Made by a program: the position numbers and the translations under genes. From Prochlorococcus sp. AG-402-G06 (GTDB taxonomy: Bacteria; Cyanobacteriota; Cyanobacteriia; PCC-6307; Cyanobiaceae): a stretch of 39,877 nt of DNA. Of this stretch, positions 35,208 to 37,797 are shown piece after piece; within the stretch, counting starts at the first letter, position 1, and each line of letters opens with the position of its first letter. The DNA lies in contig QCHR01000012.1 of the NCBI GenBank assembly GCA_003277985.1, positions 1 through 39,877 of the forward strand, in the 5' to 3' direction. The notes beneath the pieces are model-generated. The model was not told where the DNA came from. It saw only the letters and a program-made list of their open reading frames with translations, and ran no database searches.

Positions 35208-35560
35208 TCAAGTGCACCTTTTCTCCATGCATATGCTAGTGCCACAACCAATATTGTGATAAAAACAAGTGCTTCTATAAATGCTAATAACCCAAGTTTG
35301 TGAAATGCAACTGCCCATGGGTAAAGGAACACCGTCTCGACATCAAATATAACGAAAACAAGAGCAAACATGTAGTAACGAATATTAAATTGAATCCAAG
35401 CCCCTCCAATGGGCTCCATACCTGATTCATATGTAAGCTGTCTTTCTCCTGCCTTGCTTTTAGGCGCTATTAACTTATTTGTAGTAAGAGCAAGAATTGG
35501 AACTGCTCCAGAAATAAGAAGAAATCCTAAAAAATACTCATAACCCTGAAGGGAAAACAT
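35198..35560 (-). CDS. ndhC: NAD(P)H-quinone oxidoreductase subunit 3 (NdhC)
   Basis: A 120-residue membrane subunit (NuoA homologue) with three helices. The conserved loop [21 protein letters not shown] is followed by [23 protein letters not shown]. It leads the ndhC-K-J operon and is divergent from rubA. The gap to the chosen rubA start is 84 bases and must contain the promoters for both transcripts. Confidence 0.97.
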
Positions 35561-35644: not shown

Positions 35645-36070
35645 GTGAGTGAAGACCCAAAAACAAAATCAAATCCTTTGGAGGATTTGAATTCCGATGA
35701 AAAACAAAATCAAGTTATTTCTTTTGAACCAAAAAACTCAACTGGGGAATTTGATCCAAAAGCAAATCGCTTCGAATGTATGAGCTGTGGTTTTATTTAT
35801 GATCCTGATGAGGGAATAAATAAGCTAAAGATTGAACCAGGAACGGCATTCTTAGACATAGATAGAGAGAAGTTTAGATGTCCAGTCTGTCGAGTAGGAT
35901 TTGGTGGATACAAGGATATTGGCCCTAAATCAAAGCCTAGTGGATTTGAAGAAAACCTTACTTATGGCTTTGGATTTAATAAACTTCCTTCAGGCCAGAA
36001 AAACGTTCTTATTTTTGGAAGCCTGGCTTTAGCCGCTGCCTGTTTTCTCTCTCTTTATTCTTTGAAATGA
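35645..36070 (+). CDS. rubA: membrane-anchored rubredoxin RubA (photosystem II assembly)
   Basis: A 141-residue protein (from GTG35645) with a hydrophilic N-terminal tail of about 40 residues. A rubredoxin domain binds one iron through C45 and C48 (FECMSCGFIYDP) and C79 and C82 (FRCPVCRVGFGGY). One C-terminal membrane helix (about 120-138) follows. RubA is needed for PSII reaction-centre assembly in cyanobacteria. Starts at TTG35621, GTG35630 or GTG35636 are also open. GTG35645 gives the usual VSE-type beginning but no strong ribosome site is seen. It overlaps ycf48 by ATGA. Confidence 0.93.
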   Translation: MSEDPKTKSNPLEDLNSDEKQNQVISFEPKNSTGEFDPKANRFECMSCGFIYDPDEGINKLKIEPGTAFLDIDREKFRCPVCRVGFGGYKDIGPKSKPSGFEENLTYGFGFNKLPSGQKNVLIFGSLALAAACFLSLYSLK

Positions 36071-37083
36071 AACGTCTGTTTTCAAATGTCATTAATTTGG
36101 CCCTTGTCTTGGTAGTTGGAGTAGCTCTAAGTGGATGTACTGTCAGCAATGCTTCAATTGGCTCGTCAAGCCCATGGTCACCAGTTGACCTAGATACTGA
36201 GGCAAATCCATTAGATGTTGACTTTGTCGATGACAAAAATGGTTTTTTAGTCGGTACGAACAGATTAATTTTGGAGACAAATGATGGAGGAATAACCTGG
36301 AAAGAAAGAAATTTAGATATTCCAAGCGAAGGTAATTTTCGTTTAATAAGTGTTGATTTCAAAGGCCAAGAAGGTTGGATAGCAGGTCAACCAGGATTGA
36401 TTCTTCATACAACTGATGGCGGAAGAAATTGGACTCGCCTTGATTTGGGAAATAAGTTGCCAGGAGATCCTTATTTGATCACAACAATTGATACTGATTC
36501 TGCTGAGTTGGCAACTACTGCTGGAGCAATTTATAAAACTACTGATGCTGGTACAAATTGGGAAGCAATTGTTGTTGATACTTCTGGCTCTGGAGGTATA
36601 AGAGAATTAAGACGCACAAATAAAGGTGGCTATATAAGTGTTAGTAGCCTTGGGAACTTTTTCTCAGTTCTAAGCCCAGGAGAGGAAACATGGAGCCCTC
36701 ATCAAAGAGCAAGCAGCAAGAGAGTTCAAAGTGTTGGCGAACAGCCAAATGGCGATTTATGGATGCTTTCTAGAGGAGCTGAAATTAGATTTAATGAAGA
36801 TCCTAATGAAATCGACTCCTGGTCTAAGCCCATAATCCCAATCGTCAATGGATATAACTATCAAGACCTTGTTTGGGATCCATCTAAGTCGATTTGGGCC
36901 GCTGGAGGAAATGGAACTTTATTAGTGAGCAATGATGATGGAAAAACATGGGAAAAAGACCCGGTTGGTGAATCTGTTCCAACAAATTTCATCAGAATTT
37001 TATTTGTGGACGATTCTAATAGTGACAGTCCTAAGGGATTTGTTTTCGGGGAAAGAGGAAATTTATTGCGATGGCAGGGTTGA
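36067..37083 (+). CDS. ycf48: photosystem II assembly factor Ycf48 (HCF136)
   Basis: A 338-residue seven-bladed propeller protein that stabilises newly made D1 and its complexes during PSII assembly. The lipoprotein signal ends with VALSGC (C24 acylated), which places it in the thylakoid lumen tethered to the membrane. Repeated propeller motifs appear as NDGGITWKE, TDGGRNWTR, TDAGTNWEA and NDDGKTWEK. It is translationally coupled to rubA and lies 107 bases before psbE, as part of the PSII cluster. Confidence 0.96.
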   Translation: MKRLFSNVINLALVLVVGVALSGCTVSNASIGSSSPWSPVDLDTEANPLDVDFVDDKNGFLVGTNRLILETNDGGITWKERNLDIPSEGNFRLISVDFKGQEGWIAGQPGLILHTTDGGRNWTRLDLGNKLPGDPYLITTIDTDSAELATTAGAIYKTTDAGTNWEAIVVDTSGSGGIRELRRTNKGGYISVSSLGNFFSVLSPGEETWSPHQRASSKRVQSVGEQPNGDLWMLSRGAEIRFNEDPNEIDSWSKPIIPIVNGYNYQDLVWDPSKSIWAAGGNGTLLVSNDDGKTWEKDPVGESVPTNFIRILFVDDSNSDSPKGFVFGERGNLLRWQG

Positions 37084-37190: not shown

Positions 37191-37439
37191 ATGGCTGCCG
37201 GCTCTACCGGGGAACGCCCGTTTTTTGAGATCATTACTAGTGTCCGCTATTGGATTATCCATGCTGTGGCACTTCCTGCGATCTTCGTGGCAGGATTTTT
37301 ATTTGTGTCTTCTGGGCTTGCCTACGACGCTTTTGGAACTCCTAGACCAGATACGTATTTTCAGGCTGGAGAAAGCAAAGCTCCTGTTGTTGTTCAGCGC
37401 TTTGATTCCAAGGCTGAACTTGACTCGCGTCTGAAATAA
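37191..37439 (+). CDS. psbE: cytochrome b559 alpha subunit PsbE
   Basis: An 82-residue PSII core subunit with one membrane helix. The heme ligand is His24 in [17 protein letters not shown], and the lumenal part has the conserved [15 protein letters not shown]. In all characterised PSII, this His and one from PsbF together bind the heme. GAGG six bases before the ATG is a good ribosome site. Full length and no damage are seen. Unusually, psbF does not follow: psbL comes next after 29 bases. Confidence 0.98.
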
Positions 37440-37468
37440 CCAATTTTCATCTGATTGCTTTATTATCT

Positions 37469-37588
37469 ATGCAAGTCAATCCAAATCCAAATAAAGTTCC
37501 GGTTGAATTAAACCGAACAAGTCTTTATCTTGGACTCTTACTTGTTTTTGTAATGGGAATTCTTTTTTCCAGTTACTTCTTTAACTAA
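37469..37588 (+). CDS. psbL: photosystem II subunit PsbL
   Basis: A 39-residue, one-helix PSII subunit at the monomer interface, near the QA site and needed for stable QA function. The sequence contains the near-invariant [20 protein letters not shown] and ends SSYFFN. The ATG at 37469 has no clear ribosome site, so translation may depend on the preceding gene. It lies directly after psbE and 11 bases before psbJ. Confidence 0.97.
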
Positions 37589-37599
37589 ATCTCTTTATC

Positions 37600-37797
37600 A
37601 TGAGCAAATTAAAAGGACCTGATGGACGAGCAGGAGATCGTCTGCCAAATGGTATGCCTGCAGTCTCCTGGGAAAGACGGTGGACAGAGGGAGCACTTCC
37701 TTTATGGTTAGTAGCTACTGCAGGTGGAACAGCTGTTATTTTTGTTCTTGGTATTTTCTTTTACGGTTCATACACTGGTATTGGTAACGCTGGTTAG
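37600..37797 (+). CDS. psbJ: photosystem II subunit PsbJ with N-terminal extension
   Basis: A 65-residue PSII subunit. The C-terminal 35-40 residues ([20 protein letters not shown], then [13 protein letters not shown]) are classical PsbJ, which has only about 40 residues elsewhere. The first 25-30 residues (rich in Lys, Arg, Pro, Gly) are an extra hydrophilic tail on the stromal side. A start at Met19 would leave only part of it. It is last in the PSII cluster and is followed by a hairpin terminator. Confidence 0.96.

Follow-up and report, generated by a model that had tools for sequence, protein, structure and literature searches.

Loss of psbF in a lineage of Prochlorococcus and its probable replacement by a fused paralog without the heme ligand

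The DNA analysed here (the window) is a stretch of 39,877 nucleotides from contig QCHR01000012.1 of Prochlorococcus sp. AG-402-G06, and belongs to an assembly (G000) that is 86% complete and divided into 58 contigs. Near its end lie the genes psbE, psbL and psbJ, preceded by an open reading frame (ORF) that probably encodes a Ycf48-type assembly factor of photosystem II (PSII; Table 1). A preliminary description of the window had reported that psbF, the gene for the beta subunit of cytochrome b559, is missing between psbE and psbL, and that no PsbF-like helix occurs elsewhere in the cluster. Both reports are borne out: profile matches cover all three genes, psbL and then psbJ follow psbE after a short gap, and none of the ORFs of at least 25 aa on either strand between positions 35500 and 39877 is PsbF-like. 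A stretch of the gap, CCAATTTTC, had also been put forward as a possible relic of the start of PsbF, and this idea finds no support. In local alignments of spacers to intact psbE-psbL intervals, the score was matched by 3-95% of shuffles (12 pairs); for the spacer of the window against the intervals of two relatives, 13.5% and 54% of 1000 shuffles scored as well.

Table 1. Features of the psbE-psbL region of the window, and of the long-form gene and its neighbours elsewhere
Feature	Location	Strand	Remarks
Ycf48-type PSII assembly factor gene (presumed)	36067..37083	+	ORF upstream of psbE; homologues used as tree marker
psbE, cytochrome b559 alpha subunit	37191..37439	+	82 aa; TIGR01332 118.1 bits (cut-off 93.95); intact
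Spacer at expected psbF site	37440..37468	+	29 bp; no psbF, no significant remnant
psbL	37469..37588	+	PF02419 82 bits; NF001972 96.7 bits; intact
psbJ	37600..37797	+	PF01788 57.5 bits; NF002722 95.6 bits; intact
Long-form cytochrome b559 subunit beta gene	contig C7:59826-60116	-	97 aa; sole other PF00283 match in the G000 assembly
Small-protein gene beside long form	L130:5364-5807	-	homologues in several genera
Small-protein gene beside long form	L130:6453-6881	+	homologues in several genera
Small-protein gene beside long form	L130:6943-7101	-	homologues in several genera

The genome of the window belongs to genus g1 (G000-G040, 41 genomes), presumably the LLI (NATL) group of Prochlorococcus. 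We also take G002 to be NATL2A, a member of LLI, and G050, G117 and G292 to be SS120, MIT9211 and MIT9515, respectively. Comparison with close relatives had been set beforehand as the refutation test of the preliminary description, and a normal psbF was found at the psbE-psbL junction in none of the 31 g1 genomes that were read, single-contig assemblies included. The spacer is 27-30 bp long in 30 genomes of the genus and, by coordinates, 29 bp in G004. The ten g1 genomes outside this count comprise seven without a psbE match and three that have psbE (G005, G006 and G007). psbF is also absent from the junction in two genomes of genus g4, one of g28 and one of g39. In the relative G050, the interval is 172 bp long and contains psbF.

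The genome-wide search proposed in the preliminary description did return a homologue of psbF, but one of a different kind: the only PF00283 match besides psbE is a paralog without histidine, located on another contig, outside psbEFLJ, and not in the gene position between psbE and psbL. The protein is a full-length member of the NCBIfam long-form family (NF002717/NF002720), scoring 181.7 bits (cut-off 153, positions 1-97 of 97) with NF002717, the model named 'cytochrome b559 subunit beta, long form'. It also passes the cut-offs of TIGR01333 (64.1 bits, cut-off 61.15) and PF00283 (36 bits, cut-off 30). The long form joins a PsbY-like helix, which comes first, and a PsbF-like helix, which comes last, in one chain; an AlphaFold model has two helices, at low confidence (pLDDT 65.8). 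In g1 and g4, the PsbF part shows 78-82% identity with canonical PsbF in alignments of 34-37 residues; for the last 34 residues of the g1 proteins, the value is 79-82%. The differences from PsbF as modeled by TIGR01333 and PF00283 are the extra N-terminal helix, the length of 97 aa, the location outside psbEFLJ, and two replacements in the heme-His motif, where the canonical RWLAVH has become RTLAVN: Thr stands for the Trp of the RW motif and Asn for the heme His.

All 90 long-form loci examined have Asn at the heme-His site, a number in which some genomes appear more than once and g35 is represented by two of its seven long forms. Of these loci, 88 matched a script pattern that includes Asn, many long forms being also printed with patterns that allow any residue at the site, and the chain is without any His in all 88; the remaining two are one gene seen twice, which reads TLRTLAVN. 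A b-type cytochrome of this kind has two axial His, one per subunit. PsbE of G000 keeps its heme His (RYWIIH) and the long form has none. With Asn as the beta ligand and a chain without His, a bis-His cytochrome b559 cannot form. PsbE of these genomes, that of G000 included, has a change of its own: at the third position past the heme His, Ala replaces Thr in 14 of 14 sequences of psbF-less genera and in none of 50 others (64 read).

No other PsbF was found. In G001-G007, which are 99-100% complete, PF00283 matches psbE, the long form and nothing else, and TIGR01333 the long form alone; the one TIGR01333 match of the complete (100%) sister genome G043 is likewise the long form. A protein search of 13 genomes of psbF-less genera, G001-G007 and G043 among them, with PsbF of G050 and an E-value limit of 10 returned only the long form (in ten of them) and PsbE itself, which speaks against a missed canonical psbF in these genomes. 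Neither PsbF form was found in three draft assemblies, G078 (84% complete), G067 (64%, the only g28 genome) and G126 (59%). Within g1, the long form is present in 31 of the 41 genomes, in G014 as a shortened copy, and in 15 of the 17 that are at least 90% complete; the other two, G008 (93%) and G019 (90%), are drafts. G287 of g18 was rejected as a psbF-less genome: it has no psbE match either, so an assembly gap is the likely reason for its missing canonical psbF. In G053 (g14, 90% complete), a long form was seen without a psbE match.

Since psbF is absent from all 31 of the g1 junctions read, its absence is not an artefact of the record. The canonical gene was genuinely lost, and this happened in an ancestor. 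The fragmented state of G000 would give an opening to an assembly or deletion artefact, or to a normal psbF in the 14% of the genome that the assembly lacks; we give this virtually no chance, as it is refuted both by the junctions and by the lack of any canonical PsbF, up to E = 10, in the seven genomes of 99-100% completeness.

The long form has a wider distribution than the loss. In a 400-genome sample of the family, it was found in g1, g4, g11, g17, g40, g54, g37 and g14; of the 68 g18 genomes listed, 43 have it, as do seven genomes of g35. In a phylum sample of 292 genomes, it was seen only in this family, and all 34 relatives found in genome contigs were in records titled Prochlorococcus. 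The operon retains canonical psbF, His included, in genomes of g11, g17, g18, g35, g40 and g54, both genes having been read in some genomes and one gene in others. As relatives hold both genes, the paralog is older than the loss of psbF, and as it coexists with PsbF there, its first role would have been something else. This settles two of the three explanations first offered for the missing gene. Clean deletion stands, as ancestral loss of the canonical gene; plain relocation does not, since relatives carry canonical psbF beside the paralog. The third, an alpha-alpha heme site, finds no support among the findings on these genomes. A phage origin of the long form was also rejected, as no relative was found in viral contigs with an alignment of g1, g4, g11 and g40 sequences as the query, or in phage records with one g18 protein as the query. 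Two g18 genomes have unusual copies: the long form of G249 ends in FFSRSYFSNAV, as if by a frameshift, and is perhaps a decaying copy beside the kept canonical psbF; G374 has two copies with similar neighbours.

A tree of Ycf48, PsbL and PsbJ was built from 58 of 64 genomes, the six without a Ycf48 match, including all four of g18, being dropped. It groups g1, g4 and g28 together (support 100), with g11/g17/g40 as the sister group. G078 of g39, where psbE and psbL are 2 bp apart, falls elsewhere. Given this placement, psbF may have been lost twice, the loss in g39 being probably a separate one.

The PsbF part of the long form is under strong purifying selection. In the g1 fusion, mean dN is 0.0040 and mean dS 0.798, a ratio of 0.005 (30 sequences, 425 of 435 pairs). 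The ratio is higher, 0.022 (26 of 28 pairs), in g18, which keeps canonical psbF beside the long form, and 0.012 (47 of 78 pairs) in g11/g17/g40, these values being rough because dS is high (pairs with dS undefined or at least 3 were dropped).

In g1, g4, g18 and some others, the fusion gene lies near two conserved genes, and a flavodoxin gene is close by in all the g1 and g4 loci examined except one incomplete locus. The neighbour proteins are of membrane type and have no Pfam match over the cut-off and none in NCBIfam; in one small neighbour protein, LWHTYMFP is unchanged in 12 aligned sequences. The frequent company of such proteins, the coexistence with canonical PsbF in relatives and the fact that 25 of the 68 listed g18 genomes lack the long form would all be expected if the fusion served another complex together with its neighbours and was not a PSII core subunit, PSII making do with PsbE alone or with an alpha-alpha pair. 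We consider this improbable, because the F helix is so close to PsbF in g1 and g4, because constraint is stronger in the lineage that lost PsbF, and because standalone PsbY is missing from that lineage as well.

The evidence for the PsbY part is as follows. In a single profile-profile comparison of small, hand-made sets, the N-terminal 40 residues of the long form matched PsbY with a probability of 94.8% (E = 5.5e-8). The PsbY Pfam model gave 12.6-17.7 bits, below its cut-off, on long forms of some relatives, and no match on that of G000; the N-terminus against the second half of chain F of PDB 7ymi gave 9.2 bits, which is not significant alone. None of the six g1 genomes tested has a standalone PsbY over the Pfam cut-off, nor do G043 and G099. 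Nine genomes with canonical psbF have one (G050, G057, G074, G079, G093, G249, G293, G369 and G374), as do G287, G076, G240 and G132. G105, G092 and G053 lack it or score below the cut-off; as G105 (70% complete) has canonical psbF, the pattern is imperfect. G092 has a stand-alone PsbY-like gene that resembles the N-terminal half of the fusion.

We prefer the view, with a probability of about 0.7, that the His-less fusion replaces PsbF and that PSII of this lineage works without a bis-His cytochrome b559, its heme most likely being absent. Canonical psbF would have been lost from psbEFLJ in the common ancestor of g1, g4 and g28, and the pre-existing paralog, a membrane protein of PsbY-like and PsbF-like parts, would have taken its place. 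The C-terminus of PsbY and the N-terminus of PsbF are on the cytoplasmic side. As both halves of the fusion would match the topology of their parents, a single chain could fill two adjacent positions beside PsbE. PsbY is reported to lie close to PsbE and PsbF in PSII (PMC4823308), and in Arabidopsis to be required for high-potential cytochrome b559 (PMC9214863). The fusion would then dock in PSII and serve as a scaffold for its assembly, with the heme most likely missing or, as a second choice, weakly bound by the alpha His alone. Several findings count against the main reading: ten of the 41 g1 genomes, all drafts, show no long form, and the drafts G078, G067 and G126 show neither form; the PsbY pattern is broken by G105; the long form coexists with PsbF in relatives; the structural model is of low confidence; and the kept Arg residues and the Synechocystis mutants described below are also adverse.

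Arg residues near the heme ligands are reported to contact the heme propionates, and they are kept in both PsbE and the long form of G000. Their retention, and that of the PsbE His, would fit a heme that is still bound by the alpha His and the conserved Arg, five-coordinate or with a sixth ligand other than His, in a low-potential cytochrome b559 to which the fusion contributes in place of PsbF. The alpha-H22K mutant of Synechocystis, whose PSII still functions although one axial ligand is displaced (PMC4709441), is in line with this. We think a heme bound in this way unlikely, as most single-ligand mutants of Synechocystis lose stable PSII (PMC4709441), and as another clade has lost the alpha ligand plus one such Arg, which makes the site look dispensable.

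That clade emerged from a survey of PsbE, which matched in 347 of the 400 family genomes and had one low-score group. Twenty-eight genomes were read for the PsbE ligand, 14 of them the low scorers. In these 14 low scorers, which belong to ten genera (g2, g13, g21, g22, g42, g43, g47, g53, g56 and g57), Gln replaces the heme His, and the neighbouring Arg is Lys or, in G041, Asp. psbF is in place in these genomes and keeps its His (RFFAVH); the group includes a complete genome, G092. The other 50 of the 64 PsbE sequences read keep the His, the rest of the 347 being judged by score alone. Outside the family, both heme His are kept in 20 of the 20 genomes read, and all 97 genomes with any PF00283 match (131 minus 34 of the family) have two. 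The genera with Gln are close in the tree, at low support, and normal genera are nested among them. The clade is the mirror image of the psbF-less lineage, with the alpha ligand lost instead of the beta. That both lineages run PSII with a heme-free cytochrome b559, the one having exchanged the beta ligand, PsbF and PsbY for the fusion and the other having lost the alpha ligand, is a proposal whose odds we regard as even.

Mutant studies bear on whether such a PSII could work. In Synechocystis, photoautotrophic growth was lost when one of eight listed residues took the place of either axial His, the one exception being alpha-H22K; Asn is not on the list, and the passage leaves unstated which residue was placed in which subunit (PMC4709441). 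Several heme-ligand mutants were more sensitive to strong light, and photoinhibition in T. elongatus was uncorrelated with redox potential (PMC4709441). Some of the Synechocystis ligand mutants regained growth through amplification of psbEFLJ (PMC9214863), and T. elongatus PsbE H23A, in a PsbA3 background, had active PSII near the control level with only apo-cytochrome b559 (PMC4709441). In NATL2A, both a PSII yield and O2 production could be measured (PMC6517427). Together, the apo-cytochrome of H23A, the mutants with amplified psbEFLJ and the O2 production of NATL2A make a PSII without bis-His cytochrome b559 plausible. The 'PsbF-like' gene of MIT9312 is transcribed (PMC6517427), and a PsbF entry was quantified in the SS120 proteome, the passage leaving it unspecified as canonical or long form (PMC5451487). 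The role of the heme is still disputed: according to a 2025 review, there is no agreed redox function of physiological relevance for cytochrome b559 (PMC12661325).

Several known systems come close to the one proposed here. Because a named annotation family already exists for the long form, the gene itself is not new; compared by name only, the NF002717/NF002720 models are silent on its status as the sole beta subunit in g1 and g4 and on the loss of the ligand. Chain F of PDB 7ymi/7ymm, 'Photosystem II protein Y' of Acaryochloris, is a 99-aa PSII chain that resembles the long form in having a PsbF part, at residues 11-47, and a further stretch that aligns weakly with the N-terminus of the long form, but the order is reversed (F, then Y) and the heme His is kept. 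T. elongatus PsbE H23A has an active PSII without a bis-His heme, as proposed here, but is engineered and altered in the alpha subunit, whereas the present case is natural, genus-wide and in the beta subunit. The long form as the only beta subunit, its loss of the ligand and the loss of the alpha ligand elsewhere were not found in the literature searched, which covered few subscription papers.

In closing, the heme of cytochrome b559 is held to be universal in oxygenic photosynthesis. That the beta ligand was lost here, and the alpha ligand in another clade, points to weak selection in dim water on a protective redox role of the heme; low light is where the cost of losing the bis-His heme should be smallest. 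Iron saving is a further possible setting, guessed from the flavodoxin neighbourhood. The two natural losses of heme ligation, one of them in the group of the cultured NATL2A, would make the role of the heme measurable without making mutants. The PSII parts list of an abundant ocean phototroph would change and, if our reading is true, a heme held universal would have been dispensable in evolution, as the findings suggest it is in nature.
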